This document shows, piece by piece, positions 11,602 through 62,198 of a DNA stretch of 64,000 nt. Made by a program: the position numbers and the translations under genes. Numbering within the stretch: the first letter of the stretch is position 1; each line of letters starts with the position of its first letter. The notes below the pieces were generated by a model. It ran no database searches. It was given only the letters and a program-made list of their open reading frames with translations, and had not been told where the DNA came from. The stretch comes from Acinetobacter lwoffii. Its GTDB lineage: Bacteria > Pseudomonadota > Gammaproteobacteria > Pseudomonadales > Moraxellaceae. Location: positions 310,001 through 374,000 of the forward strand of contig NZ_CP072549.1 of the NCBI RefSeq assembly GCF_019343495.1, written 5' to 3'.

Positions 11602-11946
11602 CTAATCATTCTGTTTAATGTTCTCATTCGTCAAAGATACAATGAATTTCTCAATCATTTTACGCTCCAACTCTGGTAGGTCCTGTAAAGCATTAGTAAT
11701 AGGATCAATCGCTGAGGTACTCATTTTTTCACAGCGTCCCAAGATGTAATCGGATGATACATTAAGCACGACAATGAGCTTATAGAAATTTTCTAAAGAG
11801 GGTTTACGAGAGCCTGACTCAAAATGCGCAATCGAGGTTACGGGTATCCCCGTTTTTTCAGCAAGTTCTAGCTGTGTTAGCTTTCGTATCTTTCTAACTT
11901 CTTTCAATCGAATTTTAAATTCATTCGGGTCTAATTCAAGTGTCAT
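11602..11946 (-). CDS. XRE-family (Cro/CI-like) transcriptional regulator
   Basis: 114 aa from ATG 11946; an in-frame TTG at 11958 is a weaker start. The N-terminal HTH_3 domain is clear: FKIRLKEVRKIRKLTQLELA, EKTGIPVTSIAHFESGSRKP, LENFYKLIVVLNVSSDYIL (about residues 8-66). The short C-terminal tail is acidic and may mediate oligomerisation. It is divergent from the 109-aa gene at 12088, with an inverted repeat TGAC-N6-GTCA in the shared region, so it is likely an autoregulated repressor of the island. Confidence 0.85.
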   Translation of the reverse strand: MTLELDPNEFKIRLKEVRKIRKLTQLELAEKTGIPVTSIAHFESGSRKPSLENFYKLIVVLNVSSDYILGRCEKMSTSAIDPITNALQDLPELERKMIEKFIVSLTNENIKQND

Positions 11947-23536: not shown

Positions 23537-25237
23537 ATGAAAATGTCTCGCCGTGCTTATGCGGAAATGTTTGGCCCTACAGTAGGTGATAGAGTTCGCT
23601 TAGCTGATACAGAATTGTTTATTCAAGTTGAACAAGACCTCACGACTTATGGTGAAGAAGTTAAATTTGGCGGTGGCAAGGTCATTCGCGATGGTATGGG
23701 ACAGTCACAATTATTGTCTGATGAGGTCGCTGATACCGTCATTACCAATGCTTTAATTGTCGATTGGTGGGGTATTGTCAAAGCCGATGTTGGACTTAAA
23801 AATGGTCGTATCTGGAAAATAGGTAAAGCAGGTAACCCTGATATTCAACCTGACATTACAATTCCTTTAGGTGCAGCAACTGAAGTCATCGCAGGTGAAG
23901 GACAAATCTTAACGGCGGGAGGGATAGATACTCACATTCATTGGATTTGCCCACAACAAGTTGAAACAGCACTAATGTCAGGCACAACTACAATGATTGG
24001 TGGTGGTACAGGCCCCGCCGCAGGAACATCTGCAACCACAGTAACTCCAGGCCCATGGCATATTGCGACCATGCTACAAGCTATTGATGATTTACCTATG
24101 AATATTGGTCTGTTAGGTAAAGGCAACTTGAGTCAGCCAGAACCAATCGCTGAACAAATCAAAGCCGGTGTGGTGGGTTTAAAATTACATGAAGACTGGG
24201 GATCGACGCCAGCCGCGATTGATAACTGTCTAAGTGTGGCGGATCAATACGATGTACAAGTTGCCATTCACACAGACACACTAAATGAAAGTGGCTTTCT
24301 AGAAGAAACCTTAGCAGCATTTAATAACCGGACCATCCACACTTACCATACTGAGGGTGCGGGCGGTGGTCACGCACCAGATATTTTAAAAGCAATTGGT
24401 CAACCCAATGTTTTACCATCTTCAACCAATCCCACACGTCCATATACCGTCAATACCATTGATGAACATTTAGATATGTTGATGGTTTGCCACCATTTAG
24501 ACCCTGCAATTTCTGAAGATGTTGCTTTTGCTGAAAGTCGGATTCGCCGTGAAACTATTGCTGCAGAAGATATCTTGCAGGATATGGGCGCAATTGCCAT
24601 GATGTCTTCCGACTCGCAAGCGATGGGGCGTGTGGGTGAAGTAATATTACGTACTTGGCAGACAGCACATAAAATGAAAGTGCAACGCGGCCCACTCGAA
24701 GGTGATAATCAAAATCACGATAACAATCGTGTGAAGCGCTATATTGCTAAATATACGATTAATCCTGCCATTACCCATGGATTAAGCCATGAAGTTGGTT
24801 CGATTGAAGTGGGTAAATTAGCCGATATTGTTTTATGGAAGCCTGCATTTTTTGGTGTTAAGCCCTCGATGATTATTAAAGGCGGAATGATTGCAGCTGC
24901 GCCGATGGGTGATATTAATGCTTCAATTCCAACGCCACAGCCTGTGCATTATCGTCCGATGTTTGGCGCTTACCCTCGTGGCGTACATAACACCTGCATT
25001 ACCTTTTTATCGCAAGTGGCAATAGAGCAAGGCGTACATGAACAATTGGCTTTAAAGAAGTTGATTAGTCCTTGTAAAGCCACGCGTAATATCTCGAAAG
25101 CAGATATGAAGTTAAATACTTATTGTCCTGTAATGGAGGTTGACCCTGAGATTTATGAAGTACGTGCAGATGGTGTGCATTTGACTTGTGAGCCTGCGGA
25201 AGTGTTACCAATGGCGCAGCGTTACTTCTTATTTTAA
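23537..25237 (+). CDS. ureC: Urease subunit alpha (catalytic)
   Basis: 566 aa catalytic subunit. All active-site residues are seen: His133 and His135 (THIHW), carbamylated Lys216 ([10 protein letters not shown]), His245 (AIHTDT), His271 ([13 protein letters not shown]), mobile-flap Cys318-His319 (MVCHHLDP) and Asp359 ([10 protein letters not shown]). ATG 23537 ([20 protein letters not shown]) is preceded by AGGAAA and is the conserved start; the frame is open 23 codons further upstream, but that part overlaps the GNAT gene. It hydrolyses urea released by allantoicase and ureidoglycolate lyase encoded downstream. A terminator follows at 25261. Confidence 0.97.
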
Positions 25238-47293: not shown

Positions 47294-48196
47294 TTAGGCC
47301 ACCTGACCTAACGGGTTAATCTTATCATAGTACATTGCTTCAAACTCAAAAGGCGATACATAACCCAGTGCACTGTGTACACGCTTTTTATTGAACCAAT
47401 CTACCCAGTTTAGTGTCGCAAGTTGTACATCTGCTAAACCTTGCCAATCTGCTTTTAAATATTCAATCACCTCTGTTTTGTATAAGCCATTCACCGTTTC
47501 AGCCAGAGCATTATCGTATGAATCACCAGTTGTACCGACTGATGCTCGTAAATTTGCAGCTTCTAAACGATTGGTATAGCGAATAGAAAGATATTTAACA
47601 CCTCTATCGGAATGATGAATCACATTCTTTGGCATGCCTCGATCGTGCAATGCTTGCTCCAATGCATCGAGTACCATATCTGTATTCATCCGTGTAGATA
47701 CTTTCCATCCAACAATTGCTCGTGAGAACACGTCATTAACAAATGCGGTATATACCCAGCCTGAATGAGTTTGAATATACGTAAAGTCACCCACCCATAG
47801 TTGGTTTGGATGATCAGCATTAAAATTACGTTTCACTAAATCATCTGCCCGTTTTTGGTCATCTCGGTTACGGGTGGTTTGTTTATTCTTACCACGCCAA
47901 ACACCTTGTATACCTAGCTTTTGCATCAATCGAGCAACTGTACAACGTGCAATCACATAGCCTTCACGTTTCAGTTGTTGCCAGACCTTACGCACACCAT
48001 ACCGACCTGAACTTTCTTTCCAAATTCGCTTAATCTCCTCAGCATGCTGCAAGTCATGTAAATCTCGTTTCGCTCGATGTTCTGGATTTACTGTGAGATC
48101 TAAAGTCCGGTAATAGGTTGAAGCAGCGATCGGTAAAATCCTACAAATCGCCTCAACACCATATCGATCTTTATTGTTAAGGATAAAATCCACCAT
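47294..48196 (-). CDS. IS3-family transposase OrfB
   Basis: 300 aa with HTH_21 (ESSGRYGVRKVWQQLKREGY) and an rve integrase core. Catalytic Asp in LWVGDFTYIQTHSGW, second Asp in IHHSDRGVKYLS, Glu in GDSYDNALAETVNGLYKTEV. Normally made as a fusion with OrfA by -1 frameshifting; the T6 run in CTTTTTTC near the OrfA end is a possible slippery site. The start codon shares a base with the OrfA stop (TAATG). Confidence 0.93.
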   Translation of the reverse strand: MVDFILNNKDRYGVEAICRILPIAASTYYRTLDLTVNPEHRAKRDLHDLQHAEEIKRIWKESSGRYGVRKVWQQLKREGYVIARCTVARLMQKLGIQGVWRGKNKQTTRNRDDQKRADDLVKRNFNADHPNQLWVGDFTYIQTHSGWVYTAFVNDVFSRAIVGWKVSTRMNTDMVLDALEQALHDRGMPKNVIHHSDRGVKYLSIRYTNRLEAANLRASVGTTGDSYDNALAETVNGLYKTEVIEYLKADWQGLADVQLATLNWVDWFNKKRVHSALGYVSPFEFEAMYYDKINPLGQVA

Positions 48197-48513
48197 TATT
48201 TGTGTGGGCGGTCGAGCTCCGCCTGGGCGAAAAAAGCGGCTGCTTTACGTAGAATTTCATTGGCACGTTTTAATTCTTTAATTTCACGTTCCATTTGCTT
48301 CATTTTTTCTTGGTCAGATACCTGTTGTACTTTGGCGGGATTTTGTTGATCTAAGTATTTTTGATGCCAGGCACGAAGTGTTTCAGGAGTACAACCAATC
48401 TTAGGCGCAATTGCTGTGATTGCAGCCCAAGTAGAAGGATAATCTTTTTCAGATTCAATCAATAATTGAACCGCTCTTTCTCTAATTTCGGGGGTATAGT
48501 TTGGTTTTGTCAT
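48196..48513 (-). CDS. IS3-family transposase OrfA
   Basis: 105 aa. N-terminal HTH (YTPEIRERAVQLLIESEKDY ... KIGCTPETLRAWHQKYLDQ) followed by a leucine-zipper-like coiled coil (EKMKQMEREIKELKRANEIL) and the RKAAAFFAQAELDR tail typical of IS3 OrfA. It binds the ends of the element; OrfAB catalyses transposition. Complete. Confidence 0.93.
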   Translation of the reverse strand: MTKPNYTPEIRERAVQLLIESEKDYPSTWAAITAIAPKIGCTPETLRAWHQKYLDQQNPAKVQQVSDQEKMKQMEREIKELKRANEILRKAAAFFAQAELDRPHK

Positions 48514-49596: not shown

Positions 49597-50625
49597 GTGA
49601 TCAGACGAATTAAACATGCTTCTACAGCAACTTGTACATTACCCATTTATATGGGCTTTCTCATGACAGAACCGAACTCTATTAGCTGCACACAACTTGC
49701 CGAGACTTATAATATCTCGCATGATAGTGTAAATCGCTTTCTAGAGCGTGAAGACTACACACCTCACGACCTATATCAAGAATCAATTCAACATATTGAT
49801 AATAATAAACTTATAGTCAGTATTGATGATAATGTTTTAGATAAACCATATAGTCAACATATGGACTTGGTTAGCTATTTTTGGTCAGGCAAACACCACC
49901 GATCCGTCAAGGGTATTAATCTCATTACCTTGTATGCGACAGATCAAAATGGTCAAAATATTCCAATTAATTTCCGAATTTATGACAAATCTGAAAGTAA
50001 AACCAAGAATGATTACTTTATGGATATGTTAAGTGAAGTACTCAGTTGGGGTGCAAAGATTCAATTTATTACAGGTGATAGTTGGTATTCATCGACTGGA
50101 AATCTAAAAACCATAAGAAAATATGGTATTCGATTTATGTTTGGTATCGACTGTAACCGTAAGGTTTCCCCAGAAAAAGGACAATGGTTTCAACTGCGTT
50201 TATTGCCAGATTTCCATCAGGGTCAAGTGGTCTGGCTCAAAGATTTTGGCTTTGTACAATTATTTAAGACTCAGTTAAAAGAACAGCAGAGGTTTTATAT
50301 TGTGCATCAAGATGAAGATGATTTATTGTCCTTTGAAGGTTTTCATGAATTACATTCAAGTCATTGGAAAATAGAGCAATATCACCGGGTGATTAAACAA
50401 GTTTGTCATATTGAAAAGTTTCAAGTAAGACGATCTAAACTGATTTTGAATCATATTTTTTCAGCCTTGATGGCCTACGTTGAGATACAAAAGAACCAGT
50501 TTGAGCGGATCTTTGAAAATATATATCGTTGGCAGAAGAAATTATTTAGACCAATGATCAAAAACTTCATTGATGACTTTATTCTCGATAAAAATCATCT
50601 GCTACCACAGAGAATCTATAAATAA
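49597..50625 (+). CDS. IS701-family-like DDE transposase
   Basis: 342 aa. First catalytic Asp in LIVSIDDNVLDKPYS, second in FITGDSWYSSTGN, and a Glu in HWKIEQYHRVIKQVCHIEKF (the E-x6-R/K type signature). The SISCTQLAETYNISHDSVNR segment near the N-terminus is an HTH. It starts at TTG/ATG near 49597; MGFLMTEPN further in is an alternative start. Intact, so probably functional. Confidence 0.85.
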   Translation: MIRRIKHASTATCTLPIYMGFLMTEPNSISCTQLAETYNISHDSVNRFLEREDYTPHDLYQESIQHIDNNKLIVSIDDNVLDKPYSQHMDLVSYFWSGKHHRSVKGINLITLYATDQNGQNIPINFRIYDKSESKTKNDYFMDMLSEVLSWGAKIQFITGDSWYSSTGNLKTIRKYGIRFMFGIDCNRKVSPEKGQWFQLRLLPDFHQGQVVWLKDFGFVQLFKTQLKEQQRFYIVHQDEDDLLSFEGFHELHSSHWKIEQYHRVIKQVCHIEKFQVRRSKLILNHIFSALMAYVEIQKNQFERIFENIYRWQKKLFRPMIKNFIDDFILDKNHLLPQRIYK

Positions 50626-50902: not shown

Positions 50903-53230
50903 ATGACAAATAATAATTTTTCACAAGTAGCAGCTTTTATCTGGTCGGTGGCAGATTTACTGCGTGGTGACTTCAAACAATCGCAATACGGTCGTGTCAT
51001 TCTCCCATTTACGCTGTTGCGCCGTTTAGAGTGTGTACTTGAAGACAGTAAGGCAGATGTATTGGCAGCCAATGAAAAAGTGAAACTCATGCCGCTGCCA
51101 GAAGAAGCCAAAGAAAAAATGCTGCTAAAGGCAACCAATGGCCTGTCATTTTTTAATACCTCCGAGCTGGATTTAGGCAGCCTGGGTCAAAAAGACATTC
51201 GTTCAAACCTCAATACTTATATTCAAAACTTCTCCAAAGATGCACGTGAAATCTTTGAACACTTCAAGTTCGATGAATTTATTGGTCTCCTGGATGATGC
51301 CAATTTGCTTTACAAAGTCGTTCAATATTTTTCAGATCCTAAAATTGATCTCAGTCCAAAAAATATATCTAACCATGAAATGGGCTTGGTGTTTGAAGAG
51401 CTGATCCGCCGTTTTGCTGAAGGTTCAAATGAAACTGCAGGGGAACACTTTACCCCACGTGACATCGTTCGTTTAACCACAGGTCTGGTATTCAGTAAGG
51501 ATGATGATGTGCTGAGTGGTGACGGTATTATTCGGACCATTTACGATCCTACGGCGGGTACGGGTGGGTTTTTATCCTCAGGTTCGGAATATGTCTATGA
51601 GCATAACCCTGATGCGGTAATGCGCGTTTTTGGGCAGGAGTTAAACCCTGAGTCTTATGCGATCTGTAAAGCAGACATGCTGATCAAAGGTCAGGACGTG
51701 CGTAATATCAAACTGGGTAATACTCTCTCCAATGACCAATTGGCCTATGAGAAGTTTGACTACATGCTATCGAATCCGCCATTTGGGGTGGACTGGAAGA
51801 AGATCGAATCAGATATTAAAGACGAGCATGAGCAAAAAGGCTTTGAAGGTCGTTTTGGTGCAGGCTTGCCACGTGTGTCTGATGGATCTTTGCTGTTCCT
51901 GATGCATCTGATTAGCAAGATGCGTAATAAAGACGACAGCACGGCGCAGGGCAGTCGTATTGGTATTATTTTGAATGGTTCACCACTCTTTACAGGCAGT
52001 GCGGGCAGTGGTGAAAGTGAAATCCGCCGTTATATTTTAGAAGCAGATTTGTTGGAAGCCATTATCGCGCTACCCACCGATATGTTCTATAACACCGGTA
52101 TTGCGACTTATGTTTGGGTACTCAGCAATAAAAAAGAGACTCAACGTAAGGGCAAAGTACAGCTGATTGACGGTAGCAACCTGTACAGCAAAATGCGTAA
52201 GTCTCTTGGCTCTAAACGTAATGAAATGAGCGAAGACGATATTGCGATGATTACCCGCAGTTATGGTGACTTTGAAGTGACGGATGCACGTGAACTGGAT
52301 AAGCCCGCAGAGGTTAAGTCTAATCGTGGTCGTCAATCGGTTAATCCTAAAAATGAAGCTGCTAAAACCTTTTCTAGCAAAATCTTTGACAGCTATGATT
52401 TTGGCTACCGCCGTGTGACCATTGAGCGTCCATTGCGCTTATCTGCTCAGGTGAGTGATGACGCCGTAGCATCGTTACGTTTTGCACCTAAGCCGTTTAA
52501 TGCGGTGATGCAAAAGGTCTATGCGCAATACGCTACGAACTGGACAGAAGACAGCTATGGTCAGCTTGATGAGTTTGAGGTGGAAATCCGTGCGCTGATT
52601 AAAGCCGAATTTAGCGAGCTGAAAGAAAAAGATATTAAGACCGTACTTGAGCCAAAATTGTGGTTGGAACAGCGTAACTTATTAAACAAAGCTAAATGTT
52701 TACAAGCGAAGATCGGCACGGCGCAATGTGATGACTTTAATGTCTTTGATGATGTACTCAAGCAAGCGTTAAAAGATGCCAATGTGAAACTGGAAACCAA
52801 AGAGAAGAAGCAATTCCTGGATGCGATCACCTGGAAAAATGCCGACGCTGAACCTGTTATCAATAAAGTGGTGAAAGGCGCAGAAAATCCGCTTTATGGT
52901 CAGTTTAGCTATAAAGGCAAAGTGGTTGAGTTTGTGCAGGATGGTGATTTGCGTGATGCGGAAAACATTGCCCTTGACCCAAGCCAAAGCACCACCGATT
53001 TAATCGAGTCTTACTTTAAGCGTGAAGTTCAACCGCATGTGCCTGATGCATGGATTAACGCCGATAAGCGTGATGCTCAAGATGCTGAAATTGGTATTGT
53101 CGGTTATGAGATTCCGTTTAACCGCCATTTTTATGTGTATGAGCCACCACGTGATTTAAGCGAAATTGATGCAGATTTGGATGCAGTCAGCCGTGAAATT
53201 ATGGCACTTCTTCATGAGGTGCATTCTTAA
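50903..53230 (+). CDS. hsdM: Type I restriction-modification, methyltransferase subunit HsdM
   Basis: 775 aa N6-adenine methyltransferase subunit. HsdM_N helical domain (residues about 1-150), then the SAM-binding motif [11 protein letters not shown] (about residue 215) and catalytic NPPFG (about residue 287). The C-terminal 250 residues exceed the usual 500-aa HsdM and include a charged region with [19 protein letters not shown]. It methylates host DNA at the site chosen by HsdS. The stop shares a base with the hsdS start (TAATG), a typical type I arrangement. Confidence 0.95.
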
Positions 53231-54606
53231 TGGCGAAGTATCAGAAATATGTTGAATATAAGGATTCAGGTATTGAATGGTTAGGTGAGATTCCTAGTCA
53301 TTGGAAAGTATCGAAAATTGGTTTTCATACTTCAAAAATTGGTAGTGGCAAGACACCCAAAGGTGGTGCTGAAATTTACCAAGATGAAGGGGTTTTATTT
53401 TTAAGAAGCCAGAATATTTATAATGATGGTTTGAAAATCGAAGAATCTGAAAGTGTTTATATTACAGACGTTATTCATGAAGAGATGTCTACGTCAAAAG
53501 TCTTTTCAGGAGATATTCTGCTAAACATCACAGGAGGCTCAATTGGACGAAGTTGTTTAGTGCCTACAAATTTTCCTGAAGCTAATGTGAATCAGCACGT
53601 ATGCATTATTCGTGTACAAAAATATTTGAATGAGTTTTTGTCTTTAGTAATAAAAGCAGATCTTATTCAATCTCAAATTAGATTGATACAGACAGGTGGA
53701 AACAGAGAGGGATTAAACTTTGAACAAATCTCTAAATTTGTGTTCATGTTACCTCCGCAAGAAGAACAAAAATTAATTATAGGTTTCCTCGACTATGAAA
53801 CCGCAAAAATTGACAGCCTGATTGCCAAACAAGAAAAGCTGATTGAATTGCTTAAAGAAAAACGTCAAGCGGTAATTAGCCATGCCGTGACCAAAGGTTT
53901 AAATCCTGATGTTCCAATGAAAGATTCAGGTGTTGAATGGTTAGGTGAGGTTCCGGCACATTGGGAGGTGAGTAGAGTAGGTTGGCTATGTGAATTCATT
54001 TCTTATGGATTCACCAATCCCATGCCTTCAACAGATGAAGGGCCTTACATGCTGACGGCCACAGATATTGAGTTTGGACGAGTGAAGTATGAGGGGGCAA
54101 GACGCACGTCTATAGAAGCATTTAGGAATCTATTGTCCCCTAAAAGTAAACCGCAAGCAGGTGATATATTAGTTACAAAGGATGGAACCCTTGGGAGAAC
54201 GGCGCTATTTGATGGTGATAATGAAGTTTGCATTAGTCAGTCCGTAGCTCTTTTAAGGCTTCATAAAAAAATTGTGCTACCTGAGTTTCTAGTTAGAGCC
54301 TTTTCCGGTGCTGATTATCAGAGCAAAATAATATTTGATGCTGGCGGTACAACTATCAAACATATCTACATATCTACATTGTCAAAAATGAATTTTGTAT
54401 TACCTCCGATGCATGAACAAAAAATATTAGTAGATGAGTTAAAGATCAAACTTGCAGATATGGATCGGTTGATTGATCAAGCGATTAATGCTTCTAATCT
54501 CCTAGGTGAGCGCCGTACAGCACTTATATCCTCTGCGGTCACAGGCAAAATCGACGTACGCAACTGGCAACACCCCAATGAGGCTAAAACGGAGTTTAGC
54601 GCATGA
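53230..54606 (+). CDS. hsdS: Type I restriction-modification, specificity subunit HsdS
   Basis: 458 aa with two target-recognition domains. Each half opens with the same motif: KDSGIEWLGEIPSHWKVSKI (residue about 11) and KDSGVEWLGEVPAHWEVSRV (about 230). Each ends in a coiled-coil spacer (AKIDSLIAKQEKLIELLKEK and MDRLIDQAINASNLLGERRT) that fixes the distance between the half-sites. The two TRDs differ, so the recognised site is bipartite and asymmetric. Stop at 54606; the Abi_2 gene follows after 187 bp. Confidence 0.94.
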   Translation: MAKYQKYVEYKDSGIEWLGEIPSHWKVSKIGFHTSKIGSGKTPKGGAEIYQDEGVLFLRSQNIYNDGLKIEESESVYITDVIHEEMSTSKVFSGDILLNITGGSIGRSCLVPTNFPEANVNQHVCIIRVQKYLNEFLSLVIKADLIQSQIRLIQTGGNREGLNFEQISKFVFMLPPQEEQKLIIGFLDYETAKIDSLIAKQEKLIELLKEKRQAVISHAVTKGLNPDVPMKDSGVEWLGEVPAHWEVSRVGWLCEFISYGFTNPMPSTDEGPYMLTATDIEFGRVKYEGARRTSIEAFRNLLSPKSKPQAGDILVTKDGTLGRTALFDGDNEVCISQSVALLRLHKKIVLPEFLVRAFSGADYQSKIIFDAGGTTIKHIYISTLSKMNFVLPPMHEQKILVDELKIKLADMDRLIDQAINASNLLGERRTALISSAVTGKIDVRNWQHPNEAKTEFSA

Positions 54607-54793
54607 ATATTCTCAGTTGCCTCAAACAAATGTGGAATCAAGCAGATACAAAAAATCATTGCATAAATAATTGCAATGATTCACTATATGCTCAACAACA
54701 CCCGACAAGGCTAGGCAAGCAATTGCATCCTCAAACTGTCGGGTTACTTGTTTCTGGAGCCCTAAAAAATATAAAAATAGGGGCAAGCCATCT
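54607..54793 (+). ncRNA. Candidate structured RNA upstream of the Abi_2 gene
   Basis: This 187-bp gap has no gene but three strong stem-loops. (1) AATCATTGCA (54654-54663) pairs with TGCAATGATT (54672-54681), 10 bp perfect. (2) ACCCGACA (54700-54707) pairs with TGTCGGGT (54737-54744), enclosing 29 nt that contain GCAATTGC. (3) GCCCTA (54759-54764) pairs with TAGGGGC (54778-54784, one bulge), covering the ribosome-binding region of the Abi gene. AbiF-type Abi_2 proteins are known to be associated with an upstream structured ncRNA that acts as antitoxin. That this is such an RNA is inferred from position, size and structure. Confidence 0.5.
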
Positions 54794-55711
54794 ATGAAAT
54801 CTTTTAACAAGCCTGCCAAAACTTTTGCTGAACAAATCGAATTATTAAAAGCGCGTGGCATGCAATTTGCCAATGAACAACAGGCACAATTTTACCTAGA
54901 GCAAATCAATTATTATCGCTTAGGTGCCTATTGGCTTCCATTTGAAGATACCCACTCACCACATTGCTTTAAACCAGAGACCAGTTTTGAACAGGTTTTA
55001 GAGTTATATGTTTTTGATCGTGAATTAAGGCTACTCATCCTGGATGCCATAGAACGTCTGGAAGTTGCCGTTCGGACCCGTTTTGCCTATGAATTGGCAC
55101 ATCGGCATGGTTGTCATGCCTATCTGCAAGGGCAATACTTTAAACCCGCCTTTAGATGGCACAAATTATTAGAATCACTTGCAGGCGAAGTAGACCGAGC
55201 AGACGAAGTCTTTATAGAACACTATAAACGTACCTATGATGATCCTGAATTACCACCGATTTGGGCCACCTGCGAAGTGATGAGTTTCGGGCAACTGTCC
55301 AAATGGTATCAGCTCTTGGCACCGATTCAGACACGTAAAGCCATTTCCAGTCATTTTGATTGCGATGAAAAACAGTTTGAAGGCTTATTACAGCATTTTG
55401 TCTACTTAAGAAATACCTGTGCCCATCATTCAAGACTATGGAACCGCAAATTTACCAAAACCATTGCCAAGCCGCGCAGTAAGCCGATGGGGCTTCGGGT
55501 GCAATGCAATTTTGAAAATACCAACGCATCAGATCGAAAAATTTATAACAGTCTGGTATTTCTACTCTATTTCATGGACAAAATCGCCCCACAGCATACA
55601 TGGCGTAAACGTCTGGTTGATCTGCTTTTGACACATCACAACATATCAAAAACAGCGATGGGCTTCCCTGAAGATTGGCAAAGCTATCCAGTTTGGCAAA
55701 TAGAACAGTAA
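54794..55711 (+). CDS. Abi_2 (AbiD/AbiF-like) HEPN abortive-infection protein
   Basis: 305 aa of the Abi_2 family. Blocks: FAEQIELLKARGMQFANEQQ, INYYRLGAYWLPF (about residue 38), LYVFDRELRLLILDAIERLE (about 71) and the HEPN RNase motif R-x4-H as Arg206-NTCA-His211 (FVYLRNTCAHHSRLWN). Such proteins stop phage growth by RNA cleavage or translational arrest, and AbiF members are held in check by a cognate RNA. ATG 54794 follows AGGGGC, which is paired in stem 3 upstream. It sits between hsdS and hsdR in the same direction, so it is probably on the restriction transcript. Intact. Confidence 0.85.
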   Translation: MKSFNKPAKTFAEQIELLKARGMQFANEQQAQFYLEQINYYRLGAYWLPFEDTHSPHCFKPETSFEQVLELYVFDRELRLLILDAIERLEVAVRTRFAYELAHRHGCHAYLQGQYFKPAFRWHKLLESLAGEVDRADEVFIEHYKRTYDDPELPPIWATCEVMSFGQLSKWYQLLAPIQTRKAISSHFDCDEKQFEGLLQHFVYLRNTCAHHSRLWNRKFTKTIAKPRSKPMGLRVQCNFENTNASDRKIYNSLVFLLYFMDKIAPQHTWRKRLVDLLLTHHNISKTAMGFPEDWQSYPVWQIEQ

Positions 55712-55745
55712 TAAAGAAATTTGAGTATTTAGGGGTAGGGGAAAC

Positions 55746-58700
55746 ATGAGATCGGATGCAACTTTAGAAACTATCTTCCAACAAGATATTATTGCGCAAA
55801 TGCAATCGTATGGCTGGATTGTGGGTTCTGGGCAAGGCTACAATTGTGAAAAAGCCCTGTATGAGCAAGACGTACTCGACTTTGTCCAAAAGACCCAACA
55901 GGTCGAGTGGCAGAAATTTAAAAACATCTTCCCCAATGATACCGAACGCCATTTTTTAGATACCGTCGTGGCTCAGCTTAAAAAAGCCGATATCAATGCC
56001 ACCGATGTTGAATCCCGCAGTTATGGCACATTGGGCATACTCCGTCATGGCATCAAGACCCGTGGCACACGCTTTTCATTCTGTCAGTTTAAACCTGAAC
56101 ATGGTTTAAACCCCGAACTGAATCAGCGCTATCAGCAAAATATCTGCCGTGTCGTGCCTGAACTGGTGTATAGCCCATACACATCCAAAGCTGAATTAGA
56201 GGCAACAGGCAAGCAAGCCAAGAAATGGCGGATTGACCTGGTACTGTTTATCAACGGCTTTCCTGTGGCAACTCTGGAGCTCAAGTCCGAGTTTAAACAG
56301 GCTGTGCAAAATGCCATGACACAGTACCGAAAAACCCGATTGCCCAAAGACCCTGAAACCAATAAGCCTGAACCCTTGCTGATGTTTAAGCGTGGGGCAT
56401 TGGTGCATTTTGCCGTCAGTCAGTATGAAGTCTATATGGCGACGCATTTGAGTGGTGATAGCACCTACTTCCTGCCATTTAACAAAGGTACTTCAGCCCA
56501 AGGTGCAGGCAATGATGTCCCTGAAGATGTCAACGAATATGCCACAGGCTATTTATGGAATGAAGTCTTAACACCTGATAGCTTGCTGAATATTTTGGGT
56601 AACTTCATTCATTTACAGATTGAAGAAAAGGAAGACTGGGAAGGGCGCAAATACAAAAAGGAAAGTCTGATCTTCCCCCGTTATCACCAATGGAAAGTGG
56701 TGAATAACCTAGTTCAAGATTCATTGGTAGAAGGCACAGGACAGAAATACCTGATTCAGCACAGCGCAGGTTCGGGTAAATCTAACTCGATTGCATGGAC
56801 GGCGCATCAACTATCCAGTCTGTATGATGCCAACAATAAAAAGATGTTTGATTCGGTGATTGTGGTGACAGACCGAACCATCCTGGATGCACAGCTACAA
56901 GATACGATCTATCAGTTTGAACATGCGGATGGCGTCGTGGGTCGGATTAACAATAAAGAAGGTGATGGTTCTAAATCCGAGAAACTGGCCAAAGCCTTGG
57001 AAATGGCCCAGCCGATTATCATCGTCACCATTCAGACCTTCCCGTTTGTACTGCGTGCCATTGAAAACAGCACCAGTTTAAAAGAACGTAAATACGCCGT
57101 CATTGCCGATGAAGCCCATTCATCGCAAAGCGGTTCCACGGCGCGTCAGCTCAAAGAAACTTTGATGATTGAAGAGCGTGATGAAGATGAACAGCTTTCT
57201 TCTGAAGATGTACTCGATGCAGTGATGGCATCACGTAAGGGCAGTGCAAACCTAAGCTTCTATGCCTTTACCGCAACCCCAAAGGATAAAACCTTACAAC
57301 TGTTTGGACGCTTGCCCGATCCAAGCATGCCGCCGTCTAAAACCAATATTCCTGTGGCATATCATGTCTATTCGATGCGCCAAGCGATTGAAGAAGGATT
57401 TATTTTGGATGTACTGAAGAATTACACCAACTATAAAGTCATCTACAAGCTCAAGCAGAAGATCGAAGAAAAAGACGCTCAGGTCGATGCCAAGAAAGCC
57501 AAGACCAGGCTGAATCAGTGGGTACGCTTACACGATCATAATATCTCGCAAAAAGTGAATATCATCATTGAGCATTTCAAGAAAAATATTATGGGCTTAC
57601 TCGGTGGACAAGCCAAAGCCATGGTGGTGACCAGTTCTCGTAAAGAAGCGGTGCGTTATAAACAGGCTTTTGATAAATACATTGCTGAACAGAACTATGC
57701 CAACATTCAAGCCATGGTGGCATTCTCAGGCGATGTAGAATTTAATGCCAATGATGCAGACAGTAGCCATCTGTTAGGTCAAAAATTTACCGAAAGCAAT
57801 ATGAACCCGAATATGAAAGGTCGTGAGATGCGTAAGGCATTCGATAGCGATGACTTTCAGGTGATGATTGTGGCAAATAAGTTCCAGACCGGCTTTGATC
57901 AGCCGAAACTGTGTGCCATGTACGTGGATAAGAAATTGGGTGGGGTGGAGTGTGTACAGACCTTATCGCGCTTAAACCGGACTTATCCGGGTAAAGCGGA
58001 GTCAGGCACCTTTGTTCTGGATTTCTTTAACGATCCACAAGACATTCTGGATGCTTTCCAGCCATATTATCAAACGGCGGAACTGGCGGATGTATCCAAT
58101 CCTGATCAGGTTTATGATCTGTTTGAAAAGTTGAAAGCCTCAGGCATTTTCCTCTGGACTGAGGTAGAACAGTTCGTTGAGGCCTTCTACAGCAAAAATA
58201 AATCCAGTGCAGCTCTCGCTAACATCTGTAAGCCCGCTTTACAACGTTGGCAGCATCGCTATAAACAAGCCATCAATGATTATGATGTCACCAAGAACCG
58301 TTTAGAACGCTGTAAACAGACAGGTGACGCCGTACTGATTGCCAATGCTGAAAATGAGTTTGCAGAAGCGAAGAAAGCGCGTGATGCTCTGGAAATCTTC
58401 AAAAAGGATTTAGGCAGTTTCACCCGTTTCTATGAATTTATGTCTCAAATCGTGGAATATGATGATCAAGAACTTGAGAAGCTCAGTCTTTTTGCGCGTA
58501 ACTTACGCCCGATGCTGCGTGAACAAGCTGCGGACGAAGATGAAATTGATCTGAGTAATGTAGCAATGAGCCATTACCGCTTGTCTAAGCTTCGTCAGCA
58601 GGATATTCAGCTTAAAGCAGACAGTACTGAGCATAAATTGGAGCCTGGGAATGATTTGGGTACAGCCAAGGCGAAAGACAAGAAAGAAGACTTCCTGTCG

Positions 58701-59000
58701 GTGATTTTAAGCCGTGTGAATGAGATCTTTATCACGGATAAGCTGACCGATAAAGACATGATTAATTATGTGCATACCGTCGCAGATAAGATGTCTGAGA
58801 ACACACGCATGATGAAGCAGATCCAAAACAATACCCGTGAACAGGCGATGCTGGGAGAGTTTGATACGGCGCTTGATGACGCCGTATTGGATAGTAATGA
58901 GGCACATATGGAGCAGATGACACAGCTCATGAGCGATCCTGCAAAGATGAGGCAGTTTGCGCATATTATTTATGATGTGTTGGTGAATAGAGAACGTTAG
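55746..59000 (+). CDS. hsdR: Type I restriction-modification, restriction subunit HsdR
   Basis: 1084 aa. The N-terminal HSDR_N nuclease domain has the PD-(D/E)xK signature in RIDLVLFINGFPVATLELKS (about residue 160-180). The SF2 motor follows: Walker A HSAGSGKSNSIAW (about residue 338), DEAH box VIADEAHSSQ (about 455), TATPKD (about 515) and motif VI in QTLSRLNRTYPG (about 740). It translocates DNA in an ATP-dependent manner and cleaves unmethylated DNA. The C-terminal helical region binds the HsdM2S core. It follows the Abi_2 gene by 34 bp. Confidence 0.95.
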   Translation: MRSDATLETIFQQDIIAQMQSYGWIVGSGQGYNCEKALYEQDVLDFVQKTQQVEWQKFKNIFPNDTERHFLDTVVAQLKKADINATDVESRSYGTLGILRHGIKTRGTRFSFCQFKPEHGLNPELNQRYQQNICRVVPELVYSPYTSKAELEATGKQAKKWRIDLVLFINGFPVATLELKSEFKQAVQNAMTQYRKTRLPKDPETNKPEPLLMFKRGALVHFAVSQYEVYMATHLSGDSTYFLPFNKGTSAQGAGNDVPEDVNEYATGYLWNEVLTPDSLLNILGNFIHLQIEEKEDWEGRKYKKESLIFPRYHQWKVVNNLVQDSLVEGTGQKYLIQHSAGSGKSNSIAWTAHQLSSLYDANNKKMFDSVIVVTDRTILDAQLQDTIYQFEHADGVVGRINNKEGDGSKSEKLAKALEMAQPIIIVTIQTFPFVLRAIENSTSLKERKYAVIADEAHSSQSGSTARQLKETLMIEERDEDEQLSSEDVLDAVMASRKGSANLSFYAFTATPKDKTLQLFGRLPDPSMPPSKTNIPVAYHVYSMRQAIEEGFILDVLKNYTNYKVIYKLKQKIEEKDAQVDAKKAKTRLNQWVRLHDHNISQKVNIIIEHFKKNIMGLLGGQAKAMVVTSSRKEAVRYKQAFDKYIAEQNYANIQAMVAFSGDVEFNANDADSSHLLGQKFTESNMNPNMKGREMRKAFDSDDFQVMIVANKFQTGFDQPKLCAMYVDKKLGGVECVQTLSRLNRTYPGKAESGTFVLDFFNDPQDILDAFQPYYQTAELADVSNPDQVYDLFEKLKASGIFLWTEVEQFVEAFYSKNKSSAALANICKPALQRWQHRYKQAINDYDVTKNRLERCKQTGDAVLIANAENEFAEAKKARDALEIFKKDLGSFTRFYEFMSQIVEYDDQELEKLSLFARNLRPMLREQAADEDEIDLSNVAMSHYRLSKLRQQDIQLKADSTEHKLEPGNDLGTAKAKDKKEDFLSVILSRVNEIFITDKLTDKDMINYVHTVADKMSENTRMMKQIQNNTREQAMLGEFDTALDDAVLDSNEAHMEQMTQLMSDPAKMRQFAHIIYDVLVNRER

Positions 59001-59038: not shown

Positions 59039-60934
59039 ATGAATTTTTGGCATATGCAGATTCATCCTAGTGATAAAGAAGCTGTTAACCGTACTGAAGC
59101 AAAAAGAATTCTTCTCGAAAATGGTGTTATAGGTTTAGGGAATCAATGGCCGAATGATAGAGGACAACCACAAAAATTTAATACGGATGTCCAGATAGGC
59201 GATGTTGTACTCATTAGAAGCGATGGTCCACTTGCTCTAGTAAAAGTAATAAGTGAATGCTATGAGAATGTAGATAATAGTATTTGGTTCGATTTGGTTA
59301 GAAAGATAGAAATTTTATCGCTAGAAGGCAGTTTATATAAAGGAAAATTTAAGAAATATTATCACGGTAGTTGGAATGATTCTTTATATTTACCCACAAC
59401 TATTGAAATAGCTAATAATTCAGACTTTATTAAATTTTGGTATCAAGATATAAATGGAAAAGTGGTAATGGATAATACGATTAATTTACTTACTTATAAG
59501 TACCAAATAATTTTACAAGGTCCTCCAGGAACGGGGAAAACTCGTTTAGCAAAATTGATCGCTGAAGACATGATCAAACCAAACGTGCTTGGTCATCCAG
59601 AAGAAATTATCGATAGTGAACTAAAAAAATTTGATCCGACTAGCGATCATATTCAAGCCACTAGAAAACTCCATCAACGTCTTCGTAATGAGTTTTTAGA
59701 ACAATTTCCTAAAGAAAGTTTAGACCAGCAATTAACTTTATATAAATATTGTACTGGTACAGGTGAGCGAGATAACTTTTGTTGGTGGATTGAGAGAGGA
59801 CTTCAACCTTTGGGGTACTATTTCCCAGGATCATCTCGTTCATACCAAATCTATTGGAAAAAGAGTACACAGGAATATAGTAAGCACGGATTTATTAAAA
59901 ATGTCACTGATGATGAAGCTGCGATGAAAGAAGTAGCACAAAAACTTCATAATTTGGTAAATCAAAAAAATCTTGATGAGGTTGTCAAGTATTTCGGTGA
60001 TAGCTTCATGTTAAAAATTTTAAATACATACTATCCAACAGAATATTTTCCTATAAATAGTGAAAAAATGATTAACCATGCTTTAAAAGTTTTTAAATTT
60101 GATTGCTCAGCTCTAAATTTATTTGAGAAAAATAAAAAGCTTTATGAAATTTATCTGGATAAAAAAACAAAATTTAATTTAGATATTTCAGTTTTTGAAT
60201 TCTCAAATATTTTGTCTACCAATTTTAATTTAAAAACTGGAGAAGATATTAGTGAAAAAAATGAAGTGATTAGCCAAGGTGAATATCAAATTATACAATT
60301 CCATCCAGCATATTCTTATGAGGATTTTGTAAGAGGGATTGTTGCAGAAACTGATGATAATGGAAGTATATCTTATAACGTAGAAAATAAAATATTAGCA
60401 GATTTTGCAAAAAAAGCTCAAGAAAATCCAAATGGAAAGTATGTATTAATCATTGATGAAATTAATAGAGCCAATTTACCTTCAGTACTTGGTGAACTTA
60501 TTTATGCTCTAGAGTATAGAGGAGAATCAGTGGTATCTATGTATGAATATGGGGATAGTGGAAGGGAGATTATTCTCCCTAAAAACCTATATATCATTGG
60601 CACAATGAACACTGCTGATCGATCTGTAGGACATATCGATTATGCAATAAGAAGGCGATTTGCATTTGTTGATGTGCGACCAAATGAGTCCATTATTGAA
60701 AATCAAAAAGCTAAAAATCTTTTCAAAAATGTAGATTCATTATTTAAAGAACATCTGTCACCCGATTTCCAGAAAGATGATGTCATGATTGGGCATAGTT
60801 ATTTTTTAGTCCAAGATGACAATAAACTAAAAATTAAATTGGATTATGAAATTAAACCAATTTTAAAAGAATATTTGAAAGATGGGATTTTACTAGAGTC
60901 TGCTGCAGCACATATTGAGAACTTAAAGGTCTAA
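59039..60934 (+). CDS. mcrB: McrB-like AAA+ GTPase with N-terminal EVE-like domain
   Basis: 631 aa. Residues about 1-125 (MNFWHMQIHPSDKEA, GVIGLGNQWPND, IGDVVLIRSDGPLALVKVIS) look like an EVE/PUA-type domain for modified bases. Next come Walker A GPPGTGKT (161-168), a long insert, then YVLIIDEINRANLPSVLGEL (Walker B) and IIGTMNTADRSVGHIDYAIR with RRRFAF (sensor and Arg finger) characteristic of McrB. With McrC it cleaves DNA containing modified cytosines. The large insert between residues 200 and 410 is variable in the family. It follows hsdR by 38 bp and overlaps nothing; mcrC begins one base after its stop. Confidence 0.9.
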   Translation: MNFWHMQIHPSDKEAVNRTEAKRILLENGVIGLGNQWPNDRGQPQKFNTDVQIGDVVLIRSDGPLALVKVISECYENVDNSIWFDLVRKIEILSLEGSLYKGKFKKYYHGSWNDSLYLPTTIEIANNSDFIKFWYQDINGKVVMDNTINLLTYKYQIILQGPPGTGKTRLAKLIAEDMIKPNVLGHPEEIIDSELKKFDPTSDHIQATRKLHQRLRNEFLEQFPKESLDQQLTLYKYCTGTGERDNFCWWIERGLQPLGYYFPGSSRSYQIYWKKSTQEYSKHGFIKNVTDDEAAMKEVAQKLHNLVNQKNLDEVVKYFGDSFMLKILNTYYPTEYFPINSEKMINHALKVFKFDCSALNLFEKNKKLYEIYLDKKTKFNLDISVFEFSNILSTNFNLKTGEDISEKNEVISQGEYQIIQFHPAYSYEDFVRGIVAETDDNGSISYNVENKILADFAKKAQENPNGKYVLIIDEINRANLPSVLGELIYALEYRGESVVSMYEYGDSGREIILPKNLYIIGTMNTADRSVGHIDYAIRRRFAFVDVRPNESIIENQKAKNLFKNVDSLFKEHLSPDFQKDDVMIGHSYFLVQDDNKLKIKLDYEIKPILKEYLKDGILLESAAAHIENLKV

Positions 60935-60935
60935 A

Positions 60936-62198
60936 GTGAATTTACAACAAACATTTGAACATTTGCCTCTTAATATCACAGTAGATAATTTGGCTAATGT
61001 CAAAGAAATTATTTTTTGTGATAATAGGGAAAAAAAGTGTATAGAGCTTAAATTTAGTCAAGGTGGTATTACCTTACATACTAATTATTATGTTGGTGTT
61101 GATTGGCTTAAAAAGAATGACACAGCTATTTATGTAGCTCCAAAATTGAATGAGGAGACAAAAGAAACTGACTATTTCCAGATGTTATTCTCATGTATGA
61201 AACATTCTGATATATCAGCGTATTCAAAGGATTTGTACGAAATTAAGTTTGATGAACCATATATCGAGATCAATCAGAAACAGGATTTAATTACACCACT
61301 GTTAATGATCAGGTATCTGCAAGTTTTAAAATCTGTAGTTCGAAAAGGGTTAAAAAAGTCATATTACCGAGTAGAACAGAATTTAAGTTCTAAGATCAAA
61401 GGTAAGGTGCTTGTCTCAAAGACTTTAAAACAAAATATCTTAAAGAACAGACCTAATAAGACTATATGTAATTTTGAAGTCTATGGTGTCGATTCTATTG
61501 AAAATAAAATTTTAAAGTCTGCTTTGAAATTTGCAGAGATGTATTTGGCAAAATATCGGCAATTTTCGGATTATTTTTTGCCTCTAATAAGCTTTTGTAA
61601 ACCAGCTTTTCATGAAGTAGATGATAAGAATTTTGATCTTCATTTAACTAAACAAACGAAAATAAATGCTTTTTATAAGGAATATAAAGAAGCACTCGAT
61701 TTAGCAAGAATGATCATAAAGAGATTTGGTTACAATCTTAAGGAAATTGATGACAAGGTAGTAAGTGTTCCACCTTTTTGGATTGATATGCCAAAGCTCT
61801 TTGAACTTTATGTATTAGGGCTACTAAAAGAGAAATATGGTAAGAAAATTCATTTTCAGGAAAAAGCCAATTATGGTGAACCAGATTTTCTATTAATTAC
61901 TGAATCTGAAAAAATAGTGATTGATACAAAATATAAGCAGCTCTATCAGGATAATGAGAAAAATAGGGGGCGATACAATTCTGATGATATAAGACAAATT
62001 GCAGGATATGCTCGTGATAAAAAAATTCTGAAATGCTTTGGTTATAGTGGTGAAGAAATGGAGAATATTGTTGTAGATTGTTTAATTATTTATCCAGATC
62101 AACGATCTTTCGAACAATTACCCAAATTATTAAAAGCTCAGCCAATTGATCAATTTATAAAATTTTATAAGATGCCTATTAAATTACCTACATTATAA
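60936..62198 (+). CDS. mcrC: McrC-like nuclease subunit
   Basis: 420 aa with a GTG start one base after the mcrB stop (coupled). The McrBC 5-methylcytosine restriction component pattern is seen: an N-terminal region (GITLHTNYYVGVDWLKKN, VAPKLNEETKETDYFQMLFS) and a C-terminal PD-(D/E)xK nuclease core, GEPDFLLITESEKIVIDTKY with Asp and the D-T-K triad, then QIAGYARDKKI. It supplies the cutting activity for the McrB ring. Length (usual 340-450 aa) is normal. Confidence 0.9.
   Translation: MNLQQTFEHLPLNITVDNLANVKEIIFCDNREKKCIELKFSQGGITLHTNYYVGVDWLKKNDTAIYVAPKLNEETKETDYFQMLFSCMKHSDISAYSKDLYEIKFDEPYIEINQKQDLITPLLMIRYLQVLKSVVRKGLKKSYYRVEQNLSSKIKGKVLVSKTLKQNILKNRPNKTICNFEVYGVDSIENKILKSALKFAEMYLAKYRQFSDYFLPLISFCKPAFHEVDDKNFDLHLTKQTKINAFYKEYKEALDLARMIIKRFGYNLKEIDDKVVSVPPFWIDMPKLFELYVLGLLKEKYGKKIHFQEKANYGEPDFLLITESEKIVIDTKYKQLYQDNEKNRGRYNSDDIRQIAGYARDKKILKCFGYSGEEMENIVVDCLIIYPDQRSFEQLPKLLKAQPIDQFIKFYKMPIKLPTL

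Follow-up and report, generated by a model that had tools for sequence, protein, structure and literature searches.

The window analysed here is a 64-kb stretch of Acinetobacter lwoffii contig NZ_CP072549.1, whose positions serve as coordinates throughout, and it contains a type I restriction operon in which the gene abi lies between hsdS and hsdR. Our analysis supports the assignment of Abi as an AbiF-class HEPN protein that is paired with a conserved upstream non-coding RNA and nested in the type I operon. As the original prediction had stated, the open reading frame (ORF) map leaves 187 nt without a gene between the end of hsdS at 54606 and the start of abi at 54794, and the protein between the two hsd genes is an intact Abi_2 protein with a HEPN R-x4-H motif (R206-N-T-C-A-H211). 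Both residues are invariant in 25/25 aligned rows, window included. The ORF matches PF07751 Abi_2 at 197 bits (cut-off 25.6) over profile positions 2-184 of 184, and a Pfam scan of all 305 aa returned Abi_2 alone, with no PrrC-type ABC-ATPase domain. The homology to the solved AbiF (PDB 8VZ6) extends over the full length with a matching fold and 33% identity in the structure alignment, and R206 and H211 align with R210 and H215 of that structure. PADLOC labels the protein AbiD at 252 bits; AbiD, AbiD1 and AbiF have been placed in one group (PMC12373285).

A whole-window Rfam scan at the cut-off gave no match in the hsdS-abi gap, and a permissive scan ranked the abiF RNA (RF03085) first, at full length (1-37 of 37) with an E value of 0.081; weak cmscan matches to HYMAI, STnc220 and MIR161 were taken as chance. 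A covariance model, R1, was made from 59 aligned loci in records not named as Moraxellaceae (some being metagenome-assembled genomes named only to class). In this alignment two-sided changes occur in 12 of the 16 pairs, and 89.8% of cells pair as against 76.2% in shuffles and 45.7% at most when the structure is slid; RNAalifold alone recovers 10 outer and inner pairs, six of them with two-sided changes. Within the window R1 finds a single match at E up to 10 (69.1 bits, E 2.6e-16), and its next-best match in the whole genome reaches 30.8 bits. Across 80 related loci, the best 80 of at least 587, an R1 match lies just 5' of abi in all 80 (59 seeds and 21 non-seeds), reaching or entering the assigned abi start codon in L049 and L051. 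The upstream RNA of the original prediction thus held up both in a covariance-model search and in alignment with the regions upstream of other Abi_2 genes.

The RNAs of these 80 loci fall into two classes, CUCAAA, the class of the window RNA, in 53 and GCGCAC-like in 27. When ten loci were scanned with Rfam at its cut-off, the abiF matches were all GCGCAC-like (L050, two in L045 and the second RNA of L066), while the CUCAAA-class RNAs of L003, L007, L015, L019, L020, L055 and L066 went unreported, as did the GCGCAC-like RNA of L037. Four Acinetobacter-type loci, the window's own among them, yielded one sub-threshold match when scanned permissively (L086, 27.1 bits). The window RNA shares with RF03085 its position before abi, an outer stem and a small inner helix, but the curated model scores its class (AAGG...CCUCAAA) below the cut-off. 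This was so for the CUCAAA class in every locus tested, and annotation probably overlooks RNA-controlled toxins in restriction operons as a result.

The gap as a whole folds at -47.4 kcal/mol, more stable than 200/200 shuffles (z -3.6), and the original prediction had described it as forming three hairpins. The three hairpins do exist, with 10, 8 and about 6 pairs, the last over the AGGGG 5' of the abi start, but we found no support for their forming one RNA element: hairpin 2 is the sole family-wide covarying structure among them. Hairpin 1 keeps 10/10 pairs in the window and its seven closest aligned relatives and only 4-5/10 in L120, L124, L125, L129 and L088, which nevertheless keep the promoter-like letters (TTGCA and a CACNATA-like block). 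Hairpin 3 is variable and, judged by eye, is replaced by a different hairpin over the ribosome-binding site (RBS) in L120, L124 and L125, whose Abi proteins are 79-80% identical to that of the window. The decay of hairpin 1 where promoter letters stay, together with this variation, led us to reject a three-hairpin RNA of 187 nt; we instead read the RNA as a single hairpin of some 60 nt that probably has its own promoter.

When 78 unique loci were aligned on the stem, three features stood out: TTG at -41 to -39, a TATAAT-like block from -19 to -14 and an AACAA leader before the stem that hardly varies. At least 8 of 12 consensus promoter letters are present in 63/78 loci, compared with 13.9 (standard deviation 2.9) in plain letter shuffles and 29/234 at shifted positions. 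After the stem, 68/78 loci have at least 7 T in 12 nt (mean 7.6 versus 2.9 expected; window 7), though these leader and U-tail statistics are somewhat inflated because the hairpin finder rewarded AA before and T after the stem, the promoter lying outside that score. For the window, the pattern suggests a promoter TTGCAT-N17-CACTAT with an RNA start near 54694. The features of the locus are collected in Table 1.

Table 1. Features of the hsd operon and its inserted cassette, in window positions.
Feature	Position	Strand	Remarks
hsdM, type I modification subunit	50903..53230	+	Pfam HsdM_N, N6_Mtase
hsdS, specificity subunit	53230..54606	+	Pfam Methylase_S; C-terminus TEFSA-stop, final bases ATGA 54603-54606
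Inserted cassette (promoter, abiF RNA, abi), hsdS stop to hsdR start	54607..55745	+	Absent in 18/30 Acinetobacter loci with related hsdR
Hairpin 1, 10-bp inverted repeat overlapping probable promoter	54654..54681		Not a conserved RNA structure
Probable -35, TTGCAT	54659..54664	+	TTG enriched at equivalent offset across 78 unique loci; persists in loci that have lost hairpin 1
Probable -10, CACTAT (weak)	54682..54687	+	17-nt spacer; TATAAT-like block near equivalent place in 78 loci
abiF antitoxin RNA (predicted), CUCAAA class	54690..54755	+	R1 model; predicted to start near 54694 and end in U-rich tail
Hairpin 2, covarying core	54700..54744	+	Outer stem ACCCGACA/UGUCGGGU, inner AGG/CCU, single-stranded CAAAC 54732-54736
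Hairpin 3, CCCUA/UAGGG over abi RBS (AGGGG 54779-54783)	54760..54782	+	Close Acinetobacter relatives only; by reading
abi, AbiF/AbiD-family HEPN RNase toxin (predicted)	54794..55711	+	305 aa, R206/H211
hsdR, restriction subunit	55746..59000	+	G-rich RBS-like stretch 5' of hsdR in window operon

A survey of the genus (175 genomes searched, 47 with a related HsdR, 30 best loci fetched) defined the boundaries of the cassette. Twelve of the 30 loci, including the window's own, carry Abi, with the RNA in 12/12, and the other 18 lack both an Abi match and any significant RNA match. In 15 of these 18, hsdR begins with ATGA, the TGA of which closes an upstream frame of at least 450 open codons with a window-hsdS-like ending. 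The window hsdS ends in the same way as in these empty-site operons, where that ATGA is the hsdR start, and thus the cassette sits exactly at the hsdS/hsdR junction. The remaining three cassette-free loci (L126, L132 and L133) have a gene of 349-350 aa between hsdS and hsdR; that of L126 (4746-5795) encodes a DUF1016/YhcG PDDEXK nuclease according to Pfam, and the other two look alike by eye. Relative to L002-L004, the window HsdS is only 35-39% identical, against 93-98% for Abi, HsdM and HsdR, so the cassette travels with the modification and restriction backbone rather than with specificity. Additionally, the Abi of L129 is 85% and that of L120 80% identical to the window protein, with the order reversed for HsdR (80% and 91%, respectively), which speaks against tight co-evolution. 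Searched for near copies of the cassette, plasmids yielded three partial matches only; related Abi proteins occur on 185 plasmid records, all at less than 60% identity.

Linkage to restriction was examined in the 80 related loci, a type I call being a tblastn match above 50 bits to the window Hsd proteins anywhere in the fetched flanks. By this measure 40/80 loci have a type I match, including weak and distant ones (L007, L016, L036, L044 and L074), and eight further loci adjoin N6_N4 methylases, SNF2 helicases or MmeI (L032, L037, L039, L042, L048, L052, L056 and L058). Where both HsdM and HsdR were found, the cassette lies between them in 32/32 loci, 9 times after HsdS, 19 times before it and 4 times with HsdS not found. 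On an Abi tree of 79 rows (window included; L051 and L079 omitted), type I linkage requires 17 changes, at least 8 of them forced by starred branches, compared with 26.8 in shuffles, none of 500 being as low. Type I linkage is therefore clustered on the tree, yet has been gained or lost repeatedly. No restriction gene was found in the fetched flanks of 30/79 tree rows, a number that may fall because the Pfam neighbour scan reached only 27 of the 40 loci without a type I match (40 proteins). The RNA is present before Abi in these rows too, so that control by RNA may be independent of the Hsd proteins.

A phylum sample not chosen by protein (398 genomes, R1 at E up to 1e-5) yielded the RNA in 21 genomes at 24 places besides the window's. 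An abi gene, whole or broken, lies directly downstream at 19 of the 24, and HsdM or HsdR occurs near 8; only HsdM and HsdR above 100 bits were used here, leaving out a 56-bit HsdR label at L173, and HsdS labels are unreliable because the query set could hold wrong-frame ORFs. In L183, by contrast with the 32 loci described above, the cassette precedes hsdM. A broken abi with an intact RNA in L177 and L179 is consistent with the toxin being lost first.

Several observations weigh against reading the locus as an RNA-restrained toxin module, besides the bias of the hairpin finder mentioned above. The Rfam abiF score of 22.5 bits is below the gathering cut-off of 37, the further pair types in the R1 alignment are not above shuffles (189/500 reach the observed count), and conservation of the innermost helix is partial, pair 25-46 forming in 20/59. 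The window promoter hexamers are weak (7/12) and the best-scoring pair consists of other hexamers, while a simple scanner finds neither a promoter nor a plus-strand terminator, although its loop limit of 8 cannot see the RNA hairpin. Among 29 Moraxellaceae Abi_2 loci (L082-L110), 13 have an R1 match at E up to 0.05 and 16 do not; all 16 are at 29-35% identity to the window Abi, which makes RNA pairing a subfamily trait and not one of all Abi_2. Finally, five of the 24 places in the phylum sample lack an abi directly downstream (the first copy of L180, L185, L190, L194 and L195).

Some individual loci deserve mention. Divergent Abi_2 proteins (31-32% identity) lie near HsdS/HsdR matches in L100, L101 and L106 with no R1 match; another RNA or none may serve there. 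A second RNA match occurs in the same type I operon in L045 (3444-3501), where by eye it follows hsdM and precedes a second Abi-like gene, in L054 (4385-4442), between hsdM and hsdS with no room for abi, and in L059 (3479-3536). Locus L066 has, besides an RNA-abi pair in the same operon, a GCGCAC-like abiF RNA directly before hsdR with no abi between (11773-11831), which looks like a remnant of toxin loss. RNAs without an Abi gene stand, by eye, before a response-regulator-like frame in L185 (6343-6408) and before a helix-turn-helix-like protein and hsdR in L194 (3308-3366). A degenerate abiF-like RNA lies directly before a HEPN_Swt1-SNF2 helicase gene in L190 (54-115). We rejected a new pairing of RNA and HEPN_Swt1-SNF2 there, as the conserved bulge is absent and the loci of three related genes (only L197 full-length related) have no R1 match; a cassette remnant is most likely. 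The L195 match (36.8 bits) is by eye a plain palindrome and was taken as chance.

The surroundings of the operon also contain other elements. Downstream of hsdR and in its orientation lie genes for an McrB-like AAA protein and an McrC-like protein (59039-62198), so that the defence block extends past the type I operon. Upstream of hsdM lie a two-ORF element with an Rfam ALIL pseudoknot match, which we take to be IS3-like, and a DDE transposase (47294-48513; 49597-50625). An Rfam 5_ureB_sRNA match of 93.7 bits on the minus strand (23686-23969) may merely mirror conserved coding sequence.

Taken together, the locus very probably holds, as a cassette within a type I restriction operon, an AbiF-type (type III-like) toxin-antitoxin module that is restrained by RNA. 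This reading builds on the homology of both protein and RNA, on covariation, on the conserved promoter-like and U-rich patterns, on the cassette boundaries and on the constancy with which RNA and gene are paired. Transcription from a sigma-70-type promoter immediately 3' of hsdS would give rise to a short RNA of about 60 nt, consisting of one hairpin with an inner helix, a single-stranded CUCAAA stretch and a U-rich tail, the predicted site of intrinsic termination. This RNA would bind the HEPN RNase dimer and keep it inactive, whereas read-through of the hairpin, from the cassette promoter or from hsdMS, would provide the message for abi (and hsdR). Should transcription or the RNA balance fail, for example upon phage infection or operon loss, the RNA would drop, the RNase would be released and growth would stop, making the toxin a second line behind restriction as well as an addiction element for the operon.

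That the RNA binds and blocks the RNase is most likely by homology to AbiFCd-RCd22 of Clostridioides difficile, in which AbiFCd is reported to be toxic alone and to be neutralised by RCd22 in cis and in trans through direct binding (PMC12373285). The two systems share an Abi_2 HEPN toxin, an upstream abiF RNA, a promoter before the RNA and termination before the gene, the latter two being predicted for the window. In AbiFCd-RCd22, two abiF motifs are described along with a separate terminator and with a prophage lysis module as the setting (PMC12373285), whereas the window has one motif, a U-tail directly after the abiF hairpin and a restriction operon as host. PbAbiF, the protein of PDB 8VZ6, is likewise described with a bound ncRNA, AbiFr (PMC12737573, PMC12373285), and differs from the window Abi, beyond the limited identity, in that the latter has a restriction context.

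How the toxin relates to restriction is a separate matter. It is a serious contender, if somewhat short of an even chance, that the hsdS/hsdR junction is simply a tolerated landing site for defence genes and that toxin and restriction are tied by co-inheritance only. The nuclease cargo at the same junction, the patchy presence of the cassette and its place upstream of hsdM in L183 all fit this. DarTG2 of enteropathogenic Escherichia coli, which differs in that its toxin modifies DNA and its antitoxin is a protein, offers a parallel. It is reported to lie as a toxin-antitoxin pair between hsdS and hsdR, a site that its authors call a possible recombination hotspot (PMC12255303). Mere co-inheritance sits less well with the way in which type I linkage clusters on the Abi tree, though near-copies alone can produce such clusters, and with the position of the cassette inside the operon wherever both HsdM and HsdR are found, a constancy that speaks instead for a guard of restriction. 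Here the HsdMSR complex would additionally hold the RNase inactive and phage inhibition of restriction would release it, as for PrrC in EcoprrI, also described as a HEPN RNase encoded inside a type I hsd operon (PMC3710099, PMC12707154). A 2013 survey of HEPN proteins lists Abi2/AbiF/AbiD as embedded in restriction-modification operons and proposes that such linked proteins form a second line when restriction is blocked (PMC3710099). However, PrrC is described with an ABC-ATPase domain joined to HEPN (PMC3710099), which the window Abi lacks; for the window an RNA antitoxin is predicted, and nothing there points to control by the Hsd proteins. As the RNA is constant whether or not restriction genes are found nearby, the linked systems range from type I to N6_N4 methylases, SNF2 helicase/methylase pairs and MmeI, and Abi and HsdR identities cross between L129 and L120, we consider such a guard unlikely. 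It is very improbable that the leader is only an attenuator and RBS hairpin for abi with no protein-binding antitoxin, despite the U-rich tail and the window's RBS hairpin, since the conserved part includes single-stranded and leader letters unneeded for folding alone and the homologous abiF RNA is reported to act in trans by binding protein (PMC12373285).

With the RNA-restrained module as our reading, the toxin might conceivably, by the precedent of PrrC, sense loss or inhibition of restriction as the original prediction had proposed. It is also conceivable, though unlikely, that the antitoxin RNA is a shared switch for toxin and restriction. In operons that bear the cassette, its terminator-like hairpin occupies the junction at which hsdS and hsdR otherwise share an ATGA overlap, so that hsdR (or hsdS and hsdR) would be transcribed only past this hairpin or from a cassette-internal promoter, and a signal causing less termination or a loss of the RNA would raise HsdR and free the RNase together. 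Both halves of the arrangement are of known kinds; what is new is an RNA class below the Rfam cut-off, the promoter-RNA-toxin layout and the exact boundaries of the cassette in an hsd operon, and no published account of an abiF RNA nested in a restriction operon was recognised in a literature search of limited reach. Two questions become testable in a laboratory strain thanks to the exact empty sites and this layout, namely whether the hairpin gates HsdR and whether the toxin responds to restriction loss. Moreover, the range of abiF RNAs matters, as AbiF systems have been proposed as the ancestors of Cas13 (PMC12165695, PMC12737573).
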